Source: Corynebacterium suranareeae
GTDB taxonomy: Bacteria > Actinomycetota > Actinomycetes > Mycobacteriales > Mycobacteriaceae
Direction: 5' to 3'
DNA length: 64,000 nt
Assembly (NCBI RefSeq): GCF_002355155.1
Contig: NZ_AP017369.1
Span: forward strand, 1,116,001-1,180,000
Shown piece after piece: positions 7,350-41,721 of the stretch. The position numbers and the translations under genes were made by a program. The notes under the pieces were generated by a model. That model ran no database searches and was not told the origin of the DNA. It was given only the letters and a program-made list of their open reading frames with translations. Each line of letters starts with the position of its first letter. Within the stretch, counting starts at the first letter, position 1.

Positions 7350-9705
7350 TTTCCTTCAATTCCTTGGTGCGAGTTTCATCCAACTCAGTCAGACCCTCGC
7401 CCTCAACATCAACGTTTGGAAGGATCTTATCCAACCACTTAGGCAGCCACCAAGCCTTGTCATCCAGCAAGAACATCGTGGCTGGGATGATCATCATGCG
7501 AACGATGAAGGCATCGAAGAACACAGCAACAGCCAGCGCAAAGCCCATGGTCTTAATAAACGCCATGTCTTGTGCCATAAACGCGGCGAACACCGAGACC
7601 ATGATCAGCGCTGCAGCGGTGACCACGCGGGCACCATGCTTGAAACCATTCGATGTTGCATTTCCAGCTGTCTTGCCCTTGGTAAAGCCTTCACGCATGC
7701 GGGTTACTAGGAAGATCTGGTAATCCATCGCTAGACCAAACACCAGGCCGATGAGCATGATTGGGAGGAAGGATAGCAGCGGCTGTGGATCGTTAATGAG
7801 GCCGAAAGCGCCTTCCTGGAAGATAGCCACCGTTGCACCAAAGGTTGCGATAACTGATAAACCGAAGCCAAGAGCTGCGATCAAAGGCACCCAAATGGAA
7901 CGGAACACCAGCAACAGCACGAGGAATGCAAGCACCAAAACGATAAGCACATAAGGAACGAGGACGTCGCCGAGACGCTCAGAAATGTCATCATAGATTG
8001 GGGTCACACCAGTGACTCCGTATGTTGCACCAGTTTCATCTTCGAAGCTTTGAACATCTGCGCGCAAGGTAGCCAATGTGTCAGAAGTGCGCTCGTCGAT
8101 GGCATCGAATTCTGGAGTAATCAGAATCTGTGCGGTATCGAAATTCTCAGTGGTTTGGGTGATCTGAGCATTCTTTACACCATCGGTGTTTAAGAATTGC
8201 TCGACTGCTTGGCCGTATACCAAGGGGCGTTCTTCCTCTGAGACGTTCGTGGCGTCGACAAGCGCAATCATGGGCGCATTGCGGCCCGGGCCGAACGCAT
8301 CTGCCGTCAAATCATAGGCGGTGCGTGGCGCGCTGCCCAGCGTGGCCGTGCCGTCAGTCGGCATGGCCAGGCGCATATTGGTCGCAGGAATTGCGATTGC
8401 ACCGAGCAAAACGACGCCAACCAGCAGGTATGCAACCGGCATCTTGCGCACAAGGCGAACCCACTTCAGACCCATCGTGGGTTTTTCATCCTCAGGGTCT
8501 GGAACCTTAGGCCCTGGCACGCGCGCGGCGAAAATGCGAGTGCTAAGCAATCCGAGAAGTGCTGGGAGGAACGTGAGCGCAACAAGCACCGCGATGGCAA
8601 CAGTAATCGCAGCTGCAATCGCCATGACGGTAAGGAATGGAATATTAATAATCGACAGAGCAACCAGCGCGATCAACACCGTGGTGCCTGCGAAGACAAC
8701 CGCAGAACCCGCAGTACCCACAGCCATACCCATCGCGTGCGCACGCGTCGCTAGAGGCATGGTGCGCAAACGCTGCGCCAATTCCTTTGGCTCCAAATCA
8801 TTAGAACCAGTCTGCGAAATCAACTCATTGCGGAAACGCGACACAATGAACAACGCGTAGTCGATACCGACCGCAAGACCGATCATCGAAGCCAAAGTAG
8901 GCGTCATATCGTTGACAGAATCAGTAAATGCTGTTGCCAACTGAATGCCCATGATGCCGATACCCACGCCAATAATCGCAGAAATCAACGGCATACCAGC
9001 GGCAATAAATGAACCGAAAGTGACGATCAGAACAACGGCGGCAACTAGCAGACCAATGAGCTCAGAAGTCATATTCAAGCTGGTTGCAGCAGCTCCAAAG
9101 ACGTTGCCGTTGTAGACAACCGTGAGGTCGCCGTCATCGTATTCATCAAGAATGTTGGTGACTTTTTCGCGATCCTCCACAGAGACATCCATGGCGGTAT
9201 CAGCATCAAAAGTCATGGAGATAATGCCAGTGGTTTCATCCGGGCTAAGCGGGCTCACCGCCTCAATATCAGCTGCGATCTTTTCTGCAGGAACACCCTG
9301 AGCTTCCAGAGCAGGAGTCATTTGAGCAGCAAGACCTTGGGAAGCCAACACGGGGTCAACGATAGAATCAGGGTCCTGCAACACACCAGTTGCACGAACC
9401 TCTTCCAGCATCTGGTTTACCTCAGCCTGAACCTCTGGATCGGTGAGGGTTTTTCCTTCCGGTGCCTGGATAACTACCGAGCCAGTTGGCGCTGACGTTG
9501 CATCGTCTGAGCCAGGGAAGCGTTCCTGCATCTTTTCCATGGTTGTGACCGAATCGAGGCCAGGAATGGAAAAGCTACTCGACGTTGGCTTGGCATACAG
9601 GCCAGCCAAAGTTGTTATGCCGATCAGAATGACCAGCCAGACCGCAAGAAAGGGCCACTTCTTTTGATAGGCCGTAGAGCCTAACTTATAGAGGAATTTT
9701 GCCAC
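7330..9705 (-). CDS. MmpL-family RND transporter
   Basis: Inner-membrane exporter of the MmpL/HAE2 RND class, 791 residues. One helix near the N-terminus (18-38), then a large extracytoplasmic domain, five helices (about 215-385), a second external domain (about 430-550) and a final five-helix bundle ending near 750. Both conserved Asp/Tyr transmembrane motifs are visible: GLAVGIDYALFIVSR in the first bundle and FGLAMDYQIFLVTR in the second. GTG start after AAAGGA. Corynebacterial MmpL proteins move trehalose mycolates or drugs; adjacency to a corynomycolyltransferase is suggestive only, and the downstream TetR gene points to an inducible exporter. Confidence 0.9.
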   Translation of the reverse strand: MAKFLYKLGSTAYQKKWPFLAVWLVILIGITTLAGLYAKPTSSSFSIPGLDSVTTMEKMQERFPGSDDATSAPTGSVVIQAPEGKTLTDPEVQAEVNQMLEEVRATGVLQDPDSIVDPVLASQGLAAQMTPALEAQGVPAEKIAADIEAVSPLSPDETTGIISMTFDADTAMDVSVEDREKVTNILDEYDDGDLTVVYNGNVFGAAATSLNMTSELIGLLVAAVVLIVTFGSFIAAGMPLISAIIGVGIGIMGIQLATAFTDSVNDMTPTLASMIGLAVGIDYALFIVSRFRNELISQTGSNDLEPKELAQRLRTMPLATRAHAMGMAVGTAGSAVVFAGTTVLIALVALSIINIPFLTVMAIAAAITVAIAVLVALTFLPALLGLLSTRIFAARVPGPKVPDPEDEKPTMGLKWVRLVRKMPVAYLLVGVVLLGAIAIPATNMRLAMPTDGTATLGSAPRTAYDLTADAFGPGRNAPMIALVDATNVSEEERPLVYGQAVEQFLNTDGVKNAQITQTTENFDTAQILITPEFDAIDERTSDTLATLRADVQSFEDETGATYGVTGVTPIYDDISERLGDVLVPYVLIVLVLAFLVLLLVFRSIWVPLIAALGFGLSVIATFGATVAIFQEGAFGLINDPQPLLSFLPIMLIGLVFGLAMDYQIFLVTRMREGFTKGKTAGNATSNGFKHGARVVTAAALIMVSVFAAFMAQDMAFIKTMGFALAVAVFFDAFIVRMMIIPATMFLLDDKAWWLPKWLDKILPNVDVEGEGLTELDETRTKELKENAGVGA

Positions 9706-9800
9706 AATTGTCCTTTAAAGATTGGAGAGGTTGTTTTACTTCTGCCGTTGCTGAAATGAGTTGCGAGAAATGGATGGAATTTTTCGCAGACAAGGAAATT

Positions 9801-9817
9801 TTGCGCAACGTGTGCAA
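9801..9817. promoter_or_regulatory. Candidate operator upstream of the mmpL-tetR unit
   Basis: Imperfect inverted repeat TTGCGCA-ACG-TGTGCAA (6 of 7 bases pair), about 100 bp before the mmpL start, in the 243-bp gap to the RraA gene. A third TGTGCAA half-site follows at about 9827. Position and form suit a TetR operator. The assignment is inferred. Confidence 0.35.
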
Positions 9818-9948
9818 GTTTAGCTTTGTGCAAGGGCTGGTTTAAAGCTCAGATGGAGCAATGTGTCCAATGGCGGTTTCGGGATGGATTGTGGGGTAAA
9901 TCTCGATTTTGCAGGACAAGCATACTGTTTTCGATCTATGCTGTGGTC

Positions 9949-10449
9949 ATGACTCAAAACACGCCAGGATTCATTGCAACAGCAGACCTCGTAGACATCA
10001 TCGGTGACGACGCGCAATCATGCGATACCCAATTTCAAGACCTTGGAGGACTGAAAGAATTCCACGGAACGATCACCACTGTGAAATGCCTTCAAGACAA
10101 CGCGCTGCTGAAATCCATCTTGAGTGAGGACAACCCTGGGGGAGTACTGGTTATCGACGGTGATGCCTCCGTGCACACTGCACTAGTCGGCGACATTATT
10201 GCCGGTCTTGGAAAGGAACACGGTTGGTCTGGAGTAATTGTCAACGGCGCAATCCGCGACTCCGCAGTCATCGGCACCATGGACTTCGGCTGCAAAGCGC
10301 TCGGAACCAACCCGCGGAAATCAACCAAAACCGGATCAGGAGACCGGGACGTAGTGGTCTCGATCGGTGGCATCGACTTCATTCCCGGACATTACGTTTA
10401 CGCAGATTCTGATGGAATTATTGTTACTGAAGCGCCAGTGGAGCAGTAG
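9949..10449 (+). CDS. RraA-family protein (HMG/CHA aldolase-like)
   Basis: 166-residue stand-alone RraA fold. Members are either regulators of ribonuclease E activity or class II 4-hydroxy-4-methyl-2-oxoglutarate aldolases. Here GDIIAGLG and the catalytic-type motif NGAIRD with Arg103-Asp104 fit the aldolase, and the older label menG for this family is not supported. The ATG at 9949 gives the standard family length; the longer open frame from 9826 has an implausible N-terminus. No Shine-Dalgarno is seen, but TATGCT lies about 6 nt before the ATG, so the mRNA may be leaderless. A second RraA domain occurs fused at 38545-39900. Confidence 0.82.
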
Positions 10450-10598
10450 TTTGTTTGACGGGTAATTTGTTTAGGCGGTAACACAATTGGGGATTGTGGC
10501 CGATTCTTCAAGCAAGGGTAATGTCGAAATGTCTAAGCAGCTCGACTTGTATATCCCTGCTTGAACCTAAAAACTGCCGTCGATCAAAGGTGTCCCAA

Positions 10599-11261
10599 TT
10601 GTTTCATGCCGTGAGTTTCGCTCTATTGGACTCAGTAAATGTCCTGCTCATTGGCATAATTGTTGCAATTGCCGCACTTTTGCCCCGGAAGGGAAAATAT
10701 GGGCCAATCGCTACGCTGTTAGTTGCAGGCGACTGGCTCGGCGTTTTCCTCCTCAGTATCTTGGTGATGCTCGTCTTCGATGGCCTTGAGGGGGTAGTTC
10801 AAGGCTTTCTCGACTCAATTTGGTTTGGTCTCATACTTCTTGCAACCGGTATCGTTTCTTTCATAGCCACTCTGGTGTCCAAAACTGACAGCACTAGAAA
10901 ACTTGATGGATTCCTGGCACCAGTAAAAACCCCAAGCTGGAAAACCGTTGGAGCTGGACTAATTTTGGGAATTGTCCAGTCCGCGACATCACTTCCGTTT
11001 TATGCCGGGCTTGGATACTTAAGTGTTGGAAACTTTGGCCCAGCAATTCAATATGGCGGACTCGTGGTCTATGCGACCTTAGCGTTGAGCTTGCCGATTA
11101 TCGTAGCGATTCTCGTTGGCTTAGTTCGAAAGTATCCGGAAAGTCCAGTTGGTAGATTGTTTGAGCTGGTTGGGAAAAACAAAGAGCGAGTTACAAAATG
11201 GGCTGGTTACTTCGTGGCACTCGTGTTGTGTGTGATGGGTATTGCCTCGATGTTGAAGTAA
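10599..11261 (+). CDS. GAP-family (Sap-like) integral membrane protein
   Basis: About 220-residue protein with six predicted helices, beginning ALLDSVNVLLIGIIVA and ending ALVLCVMGIASMLK. The layout, with a first-helix LLDSVN, a central cytosolic loop and a second-half repeat, resembles the GAP/Sap-like part of the LysE-type transporter group, including actinobacterial sulfolipid-addressing proteins and cadmium exporters. Start uncertain: TTG at 10599 follows AAAGGTG at 6 nt; GTG at 10590 is the alternative; the frame open to 10494 yields an unlikely N-terminus. Transported substrate unknown. Confidence 0.65.
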   Translation: MFHAVSFALLDSVNVLLIGIIVAIAALLPRKGKYGPIATLLVAGDWLGVFLLSILVMLVFDGLEGVVQGFLDSIWFGLILLATGIVSFIATLVSKTDSTRKLDGFLAPVKTPSWKTVGAGLILGIVQSATSLPFYAGLGYLSVGNFGPAIQYGGLVVYATLALSLPIIVAILVGLVRKYPESPVGRLFELVGKNKERVTKWAGYFVALVLCVMGIASMLK

Positions 11262-11296
11262 ATGTTGTAGGTAATGCACTTGGTTAGTGCACTCGG

Positions 11297-11812
11297 TTAA
11301 TGCACGTACCCGTGGATCGCAAGGAACCAGCTGTTGATTCTTAGGTCAGCTTCCCTTGAAGAAATTCCATTGGTGAAGTCTTGGTACATGCTTGATGTTT
11401 CCTCCAGTGGCTGGAAATGAGGATAGAAGTCCTCATGCTTTACCGTCAATAGAACTGGCGTCCCGTACGAATCTTCTAGTCCAGGGAACTTACTGGCGAG
11501 AAGTCCAGGGAGGCGAACCTTTCTCATCCCGTTGCGGTAATTGAGATAGGTGATTAAATCGGCATGTTCAACTTCAACCCAGCCGCCATAATCAAGCTTT
11601 TTCTTACCGCCATCGATGGGAATTTCGATATTAGATTTGATGAAATGGCGTTTAGGCTTCGGGTATAAAATTTGACAGACGGAAGATCCTGTAGAAACTC
11701 GATCACCACGTTCCAGGGCTTCGATGACGGGATCCGGGAATTTTAGATTGAGTGCTGGAGCCCCGAAATGAGTTTCTCCACAGTGCCCGCAGTAGTAGTG
11801 GCCTGGTTTCAT
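11297..11812 (-). CDS. DUF2199 domain protein
   Basis: 171-residue cytosolic protein of unknown function. It opens with a zinc-ribbon-like CGHCGETHFGAP (Cys8, Cys11) followed by a region with Pro and charged residues, which is the pattern of DUF2199. No partner gene is adjacent; it is convergent with the GAP-family gene. The 294-bp gap to the HNH gene (11813-12106) shows no gene; AT-rich stretches there probably hold divergent promoters. Confidence 0.75.
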   Translation of the reverse strand: MKPGHYYCGHCGETHFGAPALNLKFPDPVIEALERGDRVSTGSSVCQILYPKPKRHFIKSNIEIPIDGGKKKLDYGGWVEVEHADLITYLNYRNGMRKVRLPGLLASKFPGLEDSYGTPVLLTVKHEDFYPHFQPLEETSSMYQDFTNGISSREADLRINSWFLAIHGYVH

Positions 11813-12106
11813 GATGTGTCTCCTTAGGTCTTAGGGTGGTTGACACTTCATAGGCTACGAGGAAAAAGGGGAGTAGCGGGTTCTGCGACTGCTAGTCCTG
11901 TGGATAACTAGCTTGTCGGATTTGATACCTGGGGATAACCCTCTGTGACCTGGAAAATTTGGGAAATGTAGGGAATGATTGGACGTAATTCTGCCTTCGT
12001 CCTGTATTGAATAAGTGTTTGCATATCACCCTTGCGTTCGAACACATGGGCGGGTAGGGTAGGTGATAACAACAAAACGGGGACCCACAGGGAAAGGGGG
12101 GACACC

Positions 12107-13726
12107 ATGAGCATTAGCACCCACGTCAACGCAATCACCACCGCACTACACGCCATCGATAATCACCTGGCAGCACTACTAGACGCTGACGGTGTCACCC
12201 TCGAGCACTACACACCCCTCGAGCCAGACCTTGTAGCACTCGAACACGCCATCAACCACCACGCCACCATCGCAGCACAAGCCACAGCACTGGCAGAACG
12301 CACCAACGCCGCCCACACCATCGGCTCCACCCACCTCATCGACTACCTCACCACCACCTTCGGCCTATCAAAAAAAGGCGCCCACCACCGCATCACCCTC
12401 GCCCACACCCTCTACCCCACCACAGGCAAAACCAGCAGTAGCACCAGTGGTGAAAGTGGCAGCGATACTGACTCCGGTGGTGATTCTGGGGATTCCGGTG
12501 GTGATGACCCTGACCCAGAACCCAACCCAGGGGATACCGGTACAGGCAATGACACTGATGGCAATGACCAGCCCGATGGTGGCTCAGGTGGCTCAGGTGG
12601 CAAGTCGCAGATCAGCGCGGAAAAACACGCCATCATCACCGAAGAACTCACCCACCTCAACCCCAATACCACACCCAGCTACGACCAGCTGCGCCACCAA
12701 GCACTCACCCACGCCATCTGGCGCACCCCAGAAGACCTACGCACCTGGCTACGCAACCAAATACGCACAGCTAACAACGCTCACCCCGATCGCATCACCG
12801 CGATGAGCAAACGCTACCTGGCGTTTAGTAAACCCGATGCCAACAACATGGTCCGCATCAGCGGCCTGATCCCTGCTACCACCGCAGCACTAATCGCAGC
12901 GAACACCGCACCCTTAACCAAACGCGGCAACCTGGTCGATACCCCACCAGCAGACGATACCCGCAGCCGTGGACAACGCCATGCTGACGCACTGCACCAC
13001 ATCATGGAGATCTACAACCAAGGCATTGTTACCCCAGCACGCGGTGGCACAGCCAGCATCATCATCTCCATGACCACCGATGACATCAACGACATCAACA
13101 CCACCGACCCCACTAACAGTAATGGTGGTAGCAGCCCACTGAACAAGCTGTACCCCACCAACACCGGGTACGCACTCAACCTGGCAGAAATCATGAATCT
13201 GATCGCTGCGAAATACGACTTCGCTGTGCTGCTTGATGGACCAACCGGGCAAGCGTTGAATGTTAACCGGATGCAACGCTCAGCGAATCTCATGCAGCGG
13301 ATTGCGTTGTTCGCCTCAGAGTTAGTGTGTAGTGCCCCGCATTGTGATCGCCCGCAGTTAGAGTGCGAGGTTCATCATCTTGACCCGTGGGTTAAAGGTG
13401 GGTTGACCAACCTGGTGAACTTAACCCAGCAGTGTTATAACCATCATCCCCGTATTGATGATTCACGTAGTGGGGTCAATGGGAAAGGCTATATGGACCG
13501 CGATCCTGATACAGGTCGGGCAGCGCATTATCCTGCGGATGGTTCAGGTCCGGTGTGTAACCGCTCTGCTGCATCAGATAGTTCAGGTGGTGCGTGGGCG
13601 AGACGTAAACACCACGGCCCACCACCACACCACCAACCACCACACCACCCACCACCGGATCCACCAGGACCACCAGACGATGTACCGGGTGATGTGTCTA
13701 GTCCTGCTGTCGATACCCTGTTTTAG
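12107..13726 (+). CDS. DUF222 / HNH endonuclease-domain protein with repetitive linker
   Basis: 539-residue protein of the actinobacterial DUF222-HNH type (13E12-like). The N-terminal helical DUF222 part (1-105) is interrupted by a linker of about 65 residues made of Gly, Ser, Asp, Thr and Pro (GESGSDTDSGGDSGDSGG, then GGSGGSGG). The rest of DUF222 follows to about 390. The HNH region has VCSAPHCDR, HHLDPWVKGG and NLTQQCYNHH, the expected metal and zinc residues. The tail is rich in His and Pro (HHGPPPHHQPPHHPPP). ATG chosen because of AAAGGGGGG 6 nt before it. Base use differs from neighbours (many CAC, ACC and CCA codons). Cellular role of this family is unknown. Confidence 0.82.
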   Translation: MSISTHVNAITTALHAIDNHLAALLDADGVTLEHYTPLEPDLVALEHAINHHATIAAQATALAERTNAAHTIGSTHLIDYLTTTFGLSKKGAHHRITLAHTLYPTTGKTSSSTSGESGSDTDSGGDSGDSGGDDPDPEPNPGDTGTGNDTDGNDQPDGGSGGSGGKSQISAEKHAIITEELTHLNPNTTPSYDQLRHQALTHAIWRTPEDLRTWLRNQIRTANNAHPDRITAMSKRYLAFSKPDANNMVRISGLIPATTAALIAANTAPLTKRGNLVDTPPADDTRSRGQRHADALHHIMEIYNQGIVTPARGGTASIIISMTTDDINDINTTDPTNSNGGSSPLNKLYPTNTGYALNLAEIMNLIAAKYDFAVLLDGPTGQALNVNRMQRSANLMQRIALFASELVCSAPHCDRPQLECEVHHLDPWVKGGLTNLVNLTQQCYNHHPRIDDSRSGVNGKGYMDRDPDTGRAAHYPADGSGPVCNRSAASDSSGGAWARRKHHGPPPHHQPPHHPPPDPPGPPDDVPGDVSSPAVDTLF

Positions 13727-36467: not shown

Positions 36468-37562
36468 GTGGTACAGCCCCAAGAACATCTCGATGCAACG
36501 TTGATCGCCGCGGACACCCATGACGGCATCAGCGATTCCGGCGAGCTTAAGCAACGTTTGAGTTTCAAGGGATGGAAATATGCCTTGAGTCGTACTGTAA
36601 AAGATGTTATTCCTGATGGCTTGCTTGATTTGGCAGCGCTGTTGACGTTCTTTTCTATCCTCTCCCTGGCTCCGGCAGTGCTGCTGGGGTATTCGGCGAT
36701 CACGATATTTTTGGCTAGTGATTCCACTGAAATTTTGCATCTTGTGCGTGATCTTGTCTCGCAAAATATGCCTGAAGACCAAGCGCAAGTGGTGCTGAGC
36801 GTTATTGATTCGATTGCAGGTTCCGCCACTGCTGGACAAGTGGGAGCTATTGTCGGTTCGATCGTGGCGCTGTGGACCTCATCTGCTTATGTTCGTGCTT
36901 TTTCCAGGTGTGCCAATGCCGTTTATGGCCGCAGCGAAGGCCGAACATTGTTGAAACAGTGGGGGATGATGCTCCTGCTCAACCTCGGATTATTGCTTGG
37001 AATCATCATCATTTTGGTGTCGTGGGTGGTCAACGAAACGTTAGTCATGGGACTACTTGCCCCCATCGCAGAACCACTACACCTTACCGAAGAGCTAAGT
37101 TTCCTAACCGATAAGTTCATGCCGATTTGGGTATGGGTGCGCTGGCCGGTGATTGTGGTGGTGCTCATTATGTTTGTAGCCACCCTCTATTATTGGGCCC
37201 CTAACGCAAAGCCGTGGAGATTCAGGTGGCTTAGCCTGGGATCTTTTTTAGCCATTGTAGGAATCATTATTGCTGGTATTGGCCTGAATTTCTATTTCAC
37301 AACGTTCGCTGCGTTTAGTTCTTATGGGGCAGTGGGATCATTGCTCGCGGTGTTTATAGCGCTGTGGATTTTTAATATTTGTTTGATTATTGGTCTGAAA
37401 ATTGACGTTGAAATCAGTCGCGCACGCCAGCTCCAAGCGGGCATGTCGGCAGAGGCCCATAGCCTGGTTCCACCGCGTTCAATTGATGCGGTGGCAAAAA
37501 TGAAGCAGCGCCAGCAGCGCTTAACGGAGCAGGCTAAGGCTTTTAGGGAAGAGAGCAATTAA
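36468..37562 (+). CDS. YihY/BrkB-family membrane protein
   Basis: 364-residue protein of the family once called ribonuclease BN, now regarded as envelope proteins of unknown function. A cytosolic N-terminus (about 45 residues) is followed by six helices with the family signature LAALLTFFSILSLAPAVLL and SSAYVRAFSRCANAVYG. The C-terminal cytosolic tail is Gln/Arg-rich (MKQRQQRLTEQAKAFREESN). GTG start with TATGAC upstream and no SD, probably leaderless. The last 63 bp of this gene are repeated at 41584-41646. Confidence 0.85.
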   Translation: MVQPQEHLDATLIAADTHDGISDSGELKQRLSFKGWKYALSRTVKDVIPDGLLDLAALLTFFSILSLAPAVLLGYSAITIFLASDSTEILHLVRDLVSQNMPEDQAQVVLSVIDSIAGSATAGQVGAIVGSIVALWTSSAYVRAFSRCANAVYGRSEGRTLLKQWGMMLLLNLGLLLGIIIILVSWVVNETLVMGLLAPIAEPLHLTEELSFLTDKFMPIWVWVRWPVIVVVLIMFVATLYYWAPNAKPWRFRWLSLGSFLAIVGIIIAGIGLNFYFTTFAAFSSYGAVGSLLAVFIALWIFNICLIIGLKIDVEISRARQLQAGMSAEAHSLVPPRSIDAVAKMKQRQQRLTEQAKAFREESN

Positions 37563-37583
37563 AAAATTGCTTGTCGACGCCCC
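37500..37583. repeat. Direct repeat, left boundary of the 37.5-41.7 kb island
   Basis: 84 bp covering the end of the yihY-like gene, its stop codon, a small AGCAATT / AATTGCT hairpin and GTCGACGCCCC. It recurs at 41584-41668 with about four differences. Confidence 0.9.
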
Positions 37584-37611: not shown

Positions 37612-38361
37612 CTAAAGCATTTGTGTGCTAATTCTTCGAGCTGCTTGTAGTACCAAAGATTGGTGCTCGAGGATTGCACTTTCATTGATTAGACCGTCGT
37701 GTCCAGCAATGCTGATTGTTGCAATCACTTCATCATGTCCGTTTCGAATTGGAGCAGTCAGGCTTACTGTGCCACGGCTTCGTTCGGACGAGCTGACAAA
37801 GTAATCAGTTTCGTGAATGTTTGCTAGATCTTGTCGCAGTGTTTCAGCGGTTTGTATTTCTCCATCTGCCAAGTGAAACGGTTCGTAATTGTTGACTATT
37901 TCATCTCGTTTTTCCTGATCCATAAAGGCTAGGAGTACTTTTCCACCACCAAGGGTGAGTGAGAGGAGTTGGCCAATGGGAAATTCGTAGCCAAGTGCGT
38001 TGGGGGCTTCAATGCGAGAAATTAGTACGCGTTGATCGCCACTAGGTACAAAAACTGATGATGTCAGAGATGAAATGGATGCAACCTCACGCAAAATCGG
38101 CGGTGAAATAAGAGCTAGCCGATCTTGGAGCTGGAATGCATGTGCATGTGGGAGAACCTGGGGTCCAAGTGTGTATCCGGTGGGGGACATCTTGAGATAG
38201 TCGCGTTTTTCTAAAGTTCCGAGAATGCGCTTCGTCGTGGCGATGTGGAGACCTGTCGCCTTGGAGATCTGCGTGAGTGTTAACGGGTCGGTTGATGAAG
38301 ACACGCTTTCGATGACATCGAGGGCTCGCTCTAATGTTCGACCCTGATTTCCTTCTGCCAT
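37612..38361 (-). CDS. IclR-family transcriptional regulator
   Basis: 249 residues. N-terminal winged helix (about 8-65: LTLTQISKATGLHIATTKRILGTL) and C-terminal GAF-like effector domain with the conserved GGGKVLLAF and SRGTVSLTAPI. The ATG at 38361 is chosen over the longer frame because it has AAGGAGG 6 nt upstream. Divergent from the dehydrogenase-aldolase gene, with a 183-bp control region between them. IclR regulators of this layout usually control the divergent catabolic operon and respond to its substrate. Confidence 0.9.
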   Translation of the reverse strand: MAEGNQGRTLERALDVIESVSSSTDPLTLTQISKATGLHIATTKRILGTLEKRDYLKMSPTGYTLGPQVLPHAHAFQLQDRLALISPPILREVASISSLTSSVFVPSGDQRVLISRIEAPNALGYEFPIGQLLSLTLGGGKVLLAFMDQEKRDEIVNNYEPFHLADGEIQTAETLRQDLANIHETDYFVSSSERSRGTVSLTAPIRNGHDEVIATISIAGHDGLINESAILEHQSLVLQAARRISTQML

Positions 38362-38460
38362 TTTATGCCTCCTTCTAGGCACTGGGTGGACTTTAAGTAT
38401 GTTCCACATCTCTGTGCGAAACAAGATATCACTCAAAGATAAAAGATTTCAAAGTCACTA

Positions 38461-38515
38461 TTGACAACTTTGTGAGCAGTACGTCACAATGACTCTCATC
38501 ACTTCATCAAGTGAT
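38461..38515 (+). promoter_or_regulatory. Promoter and overlapping palindromic operator of the catabolic operon
   Basis: TTGACA (38461-38466), 18-bp spacer and CACAAT (38485-38490) form a good promoter. ATCACTT-CATC-AAGTGAT at 38498-38515 is a perfect 7-bp inverted repeat lying over the expected start of transcription. A half-similar ATCA-TCTAG-TGAT follows at about 38524-38535. IclR binding here is inferred. Confidence 0.6.
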
Positions 38516-38544
38516 AGGAATTATCATCTAGTGATAGAGGGGTT

Positions 38545-39900
38545 ATGAAAGTAGCAGTTTTAGGTCTCGGCGAAGCGGGAATCATGTATTCCCAGGCATT
38601 TGCAGAGGCCGGTTGTGAGGTACGTGGTTTCGATATTCGGCAGGTAGCAGTGCCTGAAGGGGTCACTTTTGTCCCCTCGGTGGCAGAAGCTGTGCATAAT
38701 GCCGACCTGATTTTGAGTCTTGTCACCTCCCGCGGAGCGCTTGCTGTTGCACAAGAAGTGCGTGAATCGGTTACATCAGCTGCCGTGTATATTGATCTAA
38801 ATTCCGCATCACCTGCAAAGAAGCTCGAGGTTCAAGATGCACTTGATGGATCCGTCAAAATGGTTGATGGTGCAGTAATTGGCTCTGTGATGAAATACGG
38901 TGCGAAGGTGCATTTGTTGTTGTCTGGAGAATTTGCACAAGAAGCTGCAGAATCTATGTCCGTGATCGGCTCAGACGCAGAGGCTATTGGTGGAGCTGTT
39001 GGCGATGCATCACAACGCAAGTTGCTTCGTAGTGTTTTCATGAAGGGTCTTGGTGCACTGATTGCGGAAGCAATGCAAGCGGGTGAGGAAACCGGCCAAG
39101 TTAAATGGATGCGAACCCAGATTGCCAATGAGCTTATAGATGGTGAAGCCACGCTGGATCGCCTTAATGACGGCACAAAAATCCATGCATTGCGTAGGGC
39201 ACATGAGTTGAAAGATAGCCTTGATCAACTCCAACTAAATGCATGTGAATCACTTAATTGGCCAGTGACCCGTGGCGCACTTGATGTACATAAGTACTGG
39301 GCACGCACAACAGGATCAAGCATTGTGGAAGAACTGGCGCAGGTCCCTACTGCAGCGCTTGGTGATGGTGGAGATCGTTTAGGTGTCGTGCATTCGTCAA
39401 TCAAACAGACATGGAAGTCCCGCGCGATAGCTGGCAAAGCATTTACGGTATACACCAGAGAAGGCGACAATCAGGCTATACACCGAGCACTTAAAGAAGC
39501 AGCTCCTGGGGATATTCTCGTTGTATCTGGTGGCGGATTCACCGAGCGCGCCCTGATGGGCGAACTAATTGCACAACGAGCACAAAACGCGGGAATCATC
39601 GGGATGGTTATCGATGGCGCTGTCCGAGATGTTGATGAATTGGAAAAACTCGACTTCCCAGTGTGGGCGGCAGGCGTTTCACCAGCAGGACCATACAAAC
39701 ACGGCCCAGGCCGACTAGGAGTACCAGTTTCCATCGGAGGGGTTGTCTGCCAACACCGCGACTTCGTCGTTGCCGATGCTGATGGTGTGGTTGTAATTCC
39801 TGGCGAAAGTGCAGAACAACATCTTCATGCAGGTTTAGCCGTGGTGGCAGATGAAGCTTCCAGGCGTGAACTTATTCGTGCAACAGTCCCGGTCACCTAA
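38545..39900 (+). CDS. Fusion: NAD(P)-dependent hydroxyacid dehydrogenase + RraA-type aldolase
   Basis: 451 residues. The N-terminal half (1-240) is a beta-hydroxyacid dehydrogenase-like module: Rossmann GLGEAG (7-12), LILSLVTSRGALAVA, YIDLNSASPAKKLE, and a helical C-domain with MKGLGALIAEAM, as in the DUF1932-type branch. The C-terminal half (about 250-451) is a full RraA/HMG-aldolase domain: GDILVVSGGGFTERALMGELIA and DGAVRD with Arg361-Asp362. The pairing suggests oxidation of a hydroxyacid to an oxo acid that the second domain cleaves to pyruvate plus another product. Followed 29 bp later by a TRAP permease. GAGGGG before the ATG. Confidence 0.85.
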   Translation: MKVAVLGLGEAGIMYSQAFAEAGCEVRGFDIRQVAVPEGVTFVPSVAEAVHNADLILSLVTSRGALAVAQEVRESVTSAAVYIDLNSASPAKKLEVQDALDGSVKMVDGAVIGSVMKYGAKVHLLLSGEFAQEAAESMSVIGSDAEAIGGAVGDASQRKLLRSVFMKGLGALIAEAMQAGEETGQVKWMRTQIANELIDGEATLDRLNDGTKIHALRRAHELKDSLDQLQLNACESLNWPVTRGALDVHKYWARTTGSSIVEELAQVPTAALGDGGDRLGVVHSSIKQTWKSRAIAGKAFTVYTREGDNQAIHRALKEAAPGDILVVSGGGFTERALMGELIAQRAQNAGIIGMVIDGAVRDVDELEKLDFPVWAAGVSPAGPYKHGPGRLGVPVSIGGVVCQHRDFVVADADGVVVIPGESAEQHLHAGLAVVADEASRRELIRATVPVT

Positions 39901-39929: not shown

Positions 39930-41279
39930 ATGCCTATTGCGCTGATTGCTCTTGCAGTATTTATTGCCGTCATTGTTGTGTGGAATGTTGTATTCAAACG
40001 AAACATGGCCGAAGCTATGATCGTTGGTTTTCTTGCCACACTATTATTCGCGGGTAAAGATGCACCGCGTTTTGTGGTTGAGGCGCTGCGGGAAGCCGTG
40101 GAGAATGAAGTCCTGTTTGCAGCTGCAGCTTTCGTATTCATGACGTATTTTGTGCAAAAGACTGGCGTCATGGATCGGCTTGTCGGAATCCTCAGCTCAC
40201 TTTTAGGACGACTTCCAGGTGGGCCAGCACTGGTTGACACTGTAGCTTCCGGCGCGATGGGAGCATTGGCTGGTGGATCCAACACTGGTAATGCGGCAGC
40301 CAGTGGTTCGATCACTGGGCCTTGGATGGTTAAAACTGGATGGACTCCGCACCGTGCAGCTACGATCATCGCAGGTAATGCAGGTTTGGGGGCGGCGTTG
40401 CCTCCCAGTGCATCAATGGTGATCATGATTGGTTTTGCAGGTTCAATGGTCACAACCAGCCAGGTGTACATGGCGTTATTAGTGGCTGGTCTTTACCAGG
40501 TAGTGTATCGAATCTTTTTAACTGGTTGGTTTGTGTTCCGTGACGGTATCAAAGCCGAAACACATAGTGATCATGTTCCTTTGAGGAAGTCCTGGAAGCA
40601 GGGTTGGCCATCAACACTAATCTTTATTGGTGCGATTCTTCCGATTTTGTTGACTGTTGGCCCATTGGCTAATTACCTCAGCAACACGAGCGTTGGAGAG
40701 TCCATGGGGAATATTTCCCTTATTATGTGGATTCCATTGCTTATTATCTTTATCTCTGGTGTTGTGGCTTGGCGTGAACTGCCGAGGTCTCCGAAGGCTT
40801 GGTGGTCTTTCATGGGAGATGGCGTGCCGCAGTTCTATACCATTGGAACAATTTTGTTCTTCGCTATTCTGGCCAGTGAGGTCCTTGCTTCTTTGGGGCT
40901 GGATCAAGATGTCAATATGGTCTTGGATGGACTGAATTTGCCGTTGTGGCTTCTAGTTGCACTGGTAGGCTTGTTGGTGGTGTTGGTTGCAGGACCTTTG
41001 TCATCGTCGGCAACATTGAGTGCGGTTGGCCAGGTTTCTTTGTTCGCCATGGTCGGTGCAGGTGTTGAACCAATCTTGGCTCTAATTGCTATTTTGGTTT
41101 TCGCTTCCACTGAAGGTGCATCTCCTCCAGCTTCAGGTTCTATCTTCGTAGCCTGCGGTATTACTGGGGCTAGACCTGAAAAGACGTTTATTCCGCTCGT
41201 TGTTTATTACGTTGTTCCATTCTTCTTCCTTGGTGTGTTTATTGCACTTGGAATTATCCCCGTGCCCACAGGAGGCTAA
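39930..41279 (+). CDS. TRAP transporter large permease (DctM-like)
   Basis: 449-residue, about 12-helix sodium- or proton-coupled permease of the DctM type. Diagnostic stretch: VQKTGVMDRLVGILSSLLG, GALAGGSNTGNAAASGSI and AGLGAALPPSASMVIM, mirrored in the second half by SATLSAVGQV and STEGASPPASGSIF, the two substrate/sodium loops. An excellent ribosome site AAAGGAGG precedes the ATG. No DctP binding protein is encoded nearby; only a small two-helix protein follows. Likely imports the substrate of the upstream fusion enzyme. Confidence 0.8.
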   Translation: MPIALIALAVFIAVIVVWNVVFKRNMAEAMIVGFLATLLFAGKDAPRFVVEALREAVENEVLFAAAAFVFMTYFVQKTGVMDRLVGILSSLLGRLPGGPALVDTVASGAMGALAGGSNTGNAAASGSITGPWMVKTGWTPHRAATIIAGNAGLGAALPPSASMVIMIGFAGSMVTTSQVYMALLVAGLYQVVYRIFLTGWFVFRDGIKAETHSDHVPLRKSWKQGWPSTLIFIGAILPILLTVGPLANYLSNTSVGESMGNISLIMWIPLLIIFISGVVAWRELPRSPKAWWSFMGDGVPQFYTIGTILFFAILASEVLASLGLDQDVNMVLDGLNLPLWLLVALVGLLVVLVAGPLSSSATLSAVGQVSLFAMVGAGVEPILALIAILVFASTEGASPPASGSIFVACGITGARPEKTFIPLVVYYVVPFFFLGVFIALGIIPVPTGG

Positions 41280-41282
41280 ATC

Positions 41283-41540
41283 ATGAAACAGTCAATTAAT
41301 CAGACAACAAAGTTTCTATTTGCACTCTCGATTAGTGTCTTCTTTGTCCTCGGTTTCCTCATCGTTGGTGGGCAAGCGGTAGGACTGGTTATTCAGAACT
41401 CAGCACTTATTTCTCGTTCATATGAGTTATTTGCTGTTCCCTCCATTTCGATGGCTGTTATCGCCGGTCTCATGGGATATATCAACTACAACACGATCGA
41501 AAAGCCAGCCTTTAAAGATCTAGAAGACGAAGAAGACTAG
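41283..41540 (+). CDS. Small two-helix membrane protein, possible TRAP partner
   Basis: 85 residues; two hydrophobic segments (about 10-35 and 50-68) and an acidic C-terminus (KDLEDEED). Starts 3 bp after the TRAP permease stop, so it is translated with it. DctQ subunits normally have four helices and about 160 residues; this would be a half-size analogue or an unrelated accessory subunit. Not recognised from any family. Confidence 0.65.
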   Translation: MKQSINQTTKFLFALSISVFFVLGFLIVGGQAVGLVIQNSALISRSYELFAVPSISMAVIAGLMGYINYNTIEKPAFKDLEDEED

Positions 41541-41583: not shown

Positions 41584-41668
41584 GATGAAGCAGCGCCAAC
41601 AGCGTTTAACGGAGCAGGCTAAAGCTTTTAGGGAAGAGAGCAATTAGAAAAATTGCTTGTCGACGCCC
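41584..41668. repeat. Direct repeat, right boundary of the island
   Basis: Copy of 37500-37583 (about 95% identical), with the last 20 codons of the yihY-like gene but no gene body in front of it. The 181-bp gap 41541-41721 holds this repeat and then the promoter region of the next gene. Confidence 0.9.
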
Positions 41669-41721
41669 CCTCCTGTTTCCTGTACCGTGAGGGTTATCAC
41701 AGTAATTAGGAAGGGTTAATA

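Follow-up and report, generated by a model that had tools for sequence, protein, structure and literature searches.

A Dehydrogenase Fused to an RraA-Type Aldolase Domain

The 64,000-nucleotide stretch of Corynebacterium suranareeae DNA analyzed here (contig NZ_AP017369.1, forward-strand positions 1,116,001 to 1,180,000; the whole stretch is called the window) contains a small gene cassette comprising an IclR-family regulator, a DctM-family permease, a short hydrophobic protein and a gene in which a dehydrogenase and an RraA-type domain are encoded as one polypeptide (table 1). The N-terminal half of this fusion protein (residues 1 to ~250) is an MTH1747/DUF1932-like beta-hydroxyacid dehydrogenase and the C-terminal half (residues ~254 to 448) is a LigK-like RraA aldolase domain. 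Pfam profiles place NAD_binding_2 at residues 2–128 (E 1.7e-7, above the cut-off) and the RraA-like domain at residues 272–417 (E 1.6e-46); the match to DUF1932 (PF09130) at residues 186–249 lies below its gathering cut-off (18 vs. 25 bits). In addition to NAD_binding_2, the dehydrogenase half has the Rossmann GxGxxG and catalytic lysine of beta-hydroxyacid dehydrogenases, and its nearest solved structures by sequence are 4ezb and 3qsg. The AlphaFold2 model of the protein (mean predicted local distance difference test score 94.5) has an aldolase/RraA fold in its C-terminal half, to which 4-hydroxy-4-methyl-2-oxoglutarate/4-carboxy-4-hydroxy-2-oxoadipate (HMG/CHA) aldolase is the closest match. 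An earlier note on this DNA had described a dehydrogenase joined to a complete RraA domain, with GLGEAG at residues 7–12 and a DGAVRD motif containing Arg361-Asp362. Translation places both motifs as described, the second at residues 357–362, and the ORF (open reading frame) is uninterrupted, with both halves matched and their key residues kept.

RraA-type motifs take the form D-x20-R-D in the LigK type and G-x20-R-D-x2-E/D in other RraA-like lyases. The aligned fusions have E-x20-R-D in 41/42 cases and D-x20-R-D in 1/42, and position 365 is Glu in 20 and Asp in 2. The sole fusion with Asp rather than Glu at position 340 comes from Nesterenkonia (L097). We mapped LigK residues through a gap-free alignment to 3noj (offset 238, E199 lying three residues beyond the alignment end), with residue roles as given in passages of PMC5065237. 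R123, D124, E199, N71, and K147 of LigK correspond to R361, D362, E437, N309, and K385, and G101, G144, and R40 to G339, G382, and R278; all eight are identical in 42/42 aligned fusions. LigK orthology was rejected and the RraA half is not filed as LigK, because its scores against the curated equivalogs fall below their cut-offs; it nevertheless probably works like LigK.

In the dehydrogenase half, G7, G9, E10, G12, D30, N86, K159, and R162 are identical in 42/42 aligned fusions. An aspartate after the second Rossmann strand goes with a preference for NAD+, and D30 in this position suggests NAD+ as the cofactor. Outside the cassette the window holds a second, free RraA-like gene (9826–10449, forward strand; PF03737, 140.6 bits; D-x20-R-D by eye), which is a candidate aldolase or decarboxylase.

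Distribution of the Fusion

The full-length fusion occurs in 3 of 201 genomes of the genus, including that of C. suranareeae, the other two at 82% and 72% identity; among 61 genomes (its own and 60 relatives) it was found in its own only. A scan of genome contigs using the single fusion protein as query gave no match, and a scan with an 11-sequence alignment recovered 49 loci, a number that is not a census since both search patterns lie inside the dehydrogenase half. In 43 of these the two domains lie in line, three have a separate dehydrogenase gene and three are remote matches. The 43 fusion loci derive from 18 named actinobacterial genera and one Propionibacteriales metagenome-assembled genome without a genus name, and all are intact ORFs of 447–471 codons (42/43) except L096, the frame of which is broken. 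The fusion is not a chance product, because the full-length ORF recurs in two congeners and the contig scan gave 43 in-line loci. As split genes the two families are neighbors in distant bacteria: a tblastn match was obtained in 725 plasmid records, and in 22 of them, some being near-copies, a single place spans 80% or more of the query. An RraA gene lying in two reading frames on an Arthrobacter plasmid (L031, 7953–8586) is either a broken gene or a sequencing error.

Domain trees were built from 32 hand-picked rows (21 fused and 11 split). The fused RraA domains fall on one side of a branch with support of 96/97 and the fused dehydrogenase domains do so weakly (67/86); this grouping in both trees allows a single fusion event. 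Lateral transfer would fit the placement of the window's genus, whose rows group with those of Brevibacterium both in the dehydrogenase tree (98/92) and in a tree of the associated DctM permeases (98/94). No description of the fusion was found in the open-licence PubMed Central literature, among the matches listed, with which the earlier note's suggestion of a not-yet-described pathway is compatible.

Organization and Setting of the Cassette

Table 1. Features of the cassette and its flanks (window coordinates)
Feature	Position	Strand	Description
Left direct-repeat copy	37500..37583	+	3' end of BrkB-like gene and following bases; flanks the cassette
IclR-family regulator, divergent	37612..38436	-	Pfam HTH_IclR 45.9 and IclR_C 73.6 bits, above cut-offs
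Candidate IclR operator	38498..38515	.	Palindrome ATCACTT-N4-AAGTGAT; putative function
Second candidate operator	38522..38536	.	TATCA-N5-TGATA, directly before the ribosome-binding site; putative function
Fused dehydrogenase-RraA gene	38545..39900	+	Single ORF, ATG at 38545, stop ending at 39900, 451 aa
DctM-family permease	39930..41279	+	Pfam DctM 168.5 vs. cut-off 23.8 bits; no DctP or DctQ beside it
Small 85-aa protein	41283..41540	+	Hydrophobic segments reading as two transmembrane helices
Right direct-repeat copy	41585..41669	+	85 bp, 95.3% identical

The presence of an IclR regulator beside the fusion, proposed previously, is confirmed by the Pfam matches and by an IclR-family gene in 43/43 fusion loci, 30 of them divergent upstream and 13 downstream. 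Translation of the regulator in the window likely begins at an internal ATG near 38361. The core of the first palindrome, TCACTT-N4-AAGTGA, is kept in two of the three genomes of the genus with one mismatch in the third, and TATCA-N5-TGATA is identical in all three. A cyclase-like gene is found in 11/43 fusion loci (L095, L098, L102, L103, L105–L108, and L110–L112) and matches PF04199 wherever scanned (L031, L069, and L098), suggesting that the substrate precursor is a lactone or amide. Clustering of other ORFs near the 43 fusion loci did not reveal another enzyme that is constant; a cluster spans at most 11 loci in six genera, and several of the clusters consist of wrong-frame ORFs.

The direct repeat flanking the cassette is likely an insertion footprint; no integrase was seen among the ORFs read between its copies. 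At 48.5%, the GC content of the cassette is lower than that of the window (52.0%). One congener (G140) has brkB, pieces of an ABC gene and a flanking gene that we take to be gamma-glutamyltransferase-like, in this order and without the cassette. In a second (G210) the cassette lies between brkB and the gamma-glutamyltransferase-like gene with no ABC pair, and in a third (G134) it has none of the flanking markers within 19 kb. The earlier mention of an island is supported in the sense of an accessory cassette.

The permease gene follows the fusion in 41/43 fusion loci. The other two are L113, which stops at a contig edge, and L097, which has TctC/TctA-like genes instead (Nesterenkonia, 8001–12310, where the fusion is followed by these genes in place of DctM). 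The earlier note had named a tripartite ATP-independent periplasmic (TRAP) importer, and of this the DctM permease is present. The host genome encodes three complete DctP-DctQ-DctM sets elsewhere, the cassette DctM being its fourth DctM. None of the three DctP matches in the genome is near the cassette DctM (genome 1155930–1157276), and no DctQ match was found near the cassette. A passage of the review PMC5812351 describes DctQ as essential in TRAP transporters; since the cassette has neither DctP nor DctQ, the importer label is unjustified and a complete TRAP transporter was rejected. We predict instead that the cassette DctM would import without a binding protein. The 85-aa protein encoded next to it has no Pfam match, has relatives that were detected in 32/43 fusion loci and may stand in for DctQ.

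Partner Genes of Related DctM Permeases

We mapped the surroundings of 43 DctM genes related to that of the cassette, comprising 17 matches of a class-level search (394 genomes, own included), 22 further matches of an order-level search (397 genomes), two from plasmid records and two from congeners; a phylum-wide search matched in 3/396 genomes and gave none that was new. The partners are a dehydrogenase plus RraA in 27/43 (window and congeners included), a CoA-transferase III-like protein plus a CitE-like lyase in 8/43, and neither in 8/43, one of the last (L066) being a 6.4-kb contig on which partners may be cut off. Twenty-six of the dehydrogenase/RraA pairs beside DctM were tested for frame, and 21 are one ORF and five separate. 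The lyase family was confirmed by Pfam in four loci and the transferase in two; for the two lyases scanned, the top scores were to CitE and to RipC, a lyase of the itaconate pathway, and did not reach the cut-offs. The modules can co-occur, with L060 carrying both in a one-strand cluster and L176 having a separate dehydrogenase/RraA pair ~2 kb from its CoA-transferase/lyase DctM. Two loci of the group with neither partner have a tetronate-pathway gene above its cut-off, which in L071 is a 3-oxo-tetronate kinase (452.8 bits, cut-off 350) and in L184 a 3-oxo-tetronate-4-phosphate decarboxylase (250.4 bits, cut-off 250); L185 and L186 appear alike by eye. A PF13531 binding-protein-like gene (225–237 aa, no obvious signal peptide by eye) adjoins tetronate genes and DctM in L071 (7316–8029) and L184 (9336–10013) and lies near a LigK/DUF1932 pair in L034 (7117–7806).

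A tree built from 43 DctM rows, four of them from fusion loci and the other 39 from the mapped genes, sorts by partner in five changes, against a minimum of four, with the CoA-transferase rows needing three. The partner context supports small hydroxylated carboxylates as substrates, possibly different between groups. The earlier note had proposed a branched or hydroxylated dicarboxylic acid; the CoA-transferase/CitE-like and tetronate enzymes fit a small carboxylic acid that is hydroxylated or branched.

Proposed Function

From the observed architecture, conserved residues, predicted fold, and gene linkage we infer the catalysis, cofactor, step order, retro-aldol cleavage, substrate class, regulation, and transport set out here. 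The IclR regulator, bound to the palindromes before the fusion gene, would sense the substrate or an intermediate and make the cassette inducible. DctM and its small partner would take up a small hydroxylated carboxylate, a secondary hydroxyl of which the N-terminal domain would oxidize with NAD+ as acceptor to give a 2-oxo acid. The C-terminal domain would then use a divalent metal to bind this 2-oxo acid and perform retro-aldol C–C cleavage via a pyruvate-type enolate, releasing pyruvate (or a homologue) and a second carbonyl compound. Oxidation followed by C–C cleavage of some form is probable; the specific sequence of import, NAD+-dependent oxidation and metal-dependent retro-aldol cleavage is our leading proposal, quite possible if still short of probable. 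The earlier note had proposed oxidation of a hydroxyacid to a 4-hydroxy-2-oxoacid-like compound and retro-aldol release of pyruvate; this reading is partly supported, with decarboxylation an almost equally good fit.

Several observations weigh against retro-aldol cleavage in particular or against a single substrate for the whole family. The LigK equivalog cut-offs are missed (TIGR02798, 122.1 vs. 304.5 bits; PRK09262, 135.6 vs. 179 bits). H75 of LigK corresponds to H313, which is His in only 37/42 aligned fusions; D102 is replaced by E340 (Glu in 41, Asp in one); T145, holder of the proposed general-acid water, corresponds to P383 in 42/42; and R195 corresponds to V433 (Val in 40, Ile in two). 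According to a passage of PMC5065237, the T145A substitution lowers the kcat of HMG/CHA aldolase 18-fold, and the acid/phosphate site of the fusion therefore differs from that of LigK. In the DctM tree the permeases linked to dehydrogenase plus RraA form two separate groups, with a program warning that long branches meet, so that one shared substrate is not implied. Transport by DctM without DctP/DctQ was not found demonstrated in the open-licence literature searched.

Oxidation of beta-hydroxyacids, moreover, often gives a product that decarboxylates, and beta-hydroxyacid dehydrogenases typically yield beta-oxo acids. The fusion might accordingly be a two-domain functional analogue of malic enzyme, in which the dehydrogenase oxidizes a malate-type acid, possibly 3-substituted, and the RraA domain decarboxylates the resulting oxaloacetate-type acid. 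This is a close rival, because decarboxylation of oxaloacetate is a second activity of HMG/CHA aldolase and runs via the same enolate, as a passage of PMC5065237 states, and because the general-acid/phosphate site is altered in the fusion. The CoA-transferase and CitE-like partners of the same DctM subfamily would likewise fit beta-hydroxy-dicarboxylates. That the closest fold is an aldolase argues for C–C cleavage of the retro-aldol type, as does the retention in 42/42 fusions of the equivalents of N71 and K147, which are critical for HMG cleavage by LigK (PMC5065237). On balance we regard decarboxylation as somewhat unlikely. The order of steps could also be reversed, with the RraA domain cleaving a 4-hydroxy-2-oxo acid and the dehydrogenase reducing (or oxidizing) a product. 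We retain this as a rival because split pairs of a DUF1932-type dehydrogenase and a LigK-type gene occur among aromatic ring-cleavage genes, in Diaphorobacter (L034), Thermus (L054) and, by eye, L028. LigK ends an aromatic ring-cleavage pathway, and we know of no preceding hydroxy-acid oxidation there. The cassette comes with an importer and, apart from the dehydrogenase, encodes no enzyme that would make a 2-oxo acid, and the conserved D30, if indicative of NAD+, would point to oxidation; reversal is thus improbable.

The remaining explanations deny a joint pathway. Domains acting on unrelated substrates, fused for co-regulation or assembly only, have a parallel in curated PRK07028 and PRK12764, where RraA domains are fused to other enzymes (judging from names and profile lengths), but the two families are adjacent as split genes in distant bacteria and residues are conserved in both domains of the fusion, making this very unlikely. 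We give least credence of all to a noncatalytic RraA regulator of RNase E joined to a dehydrogenase, given the invariant aldolase metal and enolate residues, the catabolic context, and a score below the cut-off of the equivalog PRK09372 (102.7 vs. 136 bits), on which account the RNA-regulator assignment was rejected.

A wider and more speculative picture can be drawn. In actinobacteria, a family of DctM importers that need no binding protein and have a small membrane protein as partner may serve small hydroxy-acids and be paired with interchangeable C–C-cleaving modules. The dehydrogenase-RraA fusion would then be a CoA- and phosphate-free, previously undescribed route for a lactone-forming hydroxy-dicarboxylate, with the cyclase-family hydrolase opening a lactone or amide in some lineages; we consider this whole possible but doubtful. 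The fusion links in one polypeptide the DUF1932-type dehydrogenases and LigK-like RraA proteins, both widespread and of unsettled joint function, and studying a single purified fusion could show what many split gene pairs do. The cassette is, further, a pointer to DctM-type importers that may act without a binding protein and to a carbon source not yet assigned in the window's genus.

Comparison with Known Systems

Among the closest known systems are separate DUF1932-type dehydrogenase and RraA genes, neighbors in P. syringae, Nitratireductor, Shinella, Priestia, and Rhizobium. In plasmids of P. syringae, Priestia, Rhizobium, Nitratireductor, and Thermus the same two families are adjacent, differing from the fusion in being two genes of variable order. 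Several of the split pairs are near genes for major facilitator superfamily (MFS), citrate:proton symporter, tripartite tricarboxylate (TTT) or TRAP-type transporters; a citrate:proton symporter gene is nearby in Priestia, and the Rhizobium pair adjoins a TRAP-type permease whose annotation is split in two. To our knowledge no shared substrate has been reported for such pairs. HMG/CHA aldolase of the LigK/PcmE type (3noj, P. putida), a class II pyruvate aldolase, lacks the dehydrogenase half, and the cassette protein has E340, P383, and V433 in place of its D102, T145, and R195. Unlike the setting of LigK, no aromatic ring-cleavage gene was found among the scanned neighbors of the cassette.

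MTH1747/DUF1932-type proteins (1i36, 3qsg, and 4ezb, whose entry titles give the function as unknown or use the word "like") are related dehydrogenases, to which the window protein adds an RraA domain, with a DUF1932 score below the cut-off. With the DctPQM transporters the cassette shares the large DctM permease, but it has an 85-aa membrane protein and no DctP or DctQ. A related DctM also lies beside the genes of tetronate (threonate/erythronate) catabolism in L071 and L184, in which a kinase and a phosphate-dependent decarboxylase stand where the cassette has the dehydrogenase-RraA fusion.
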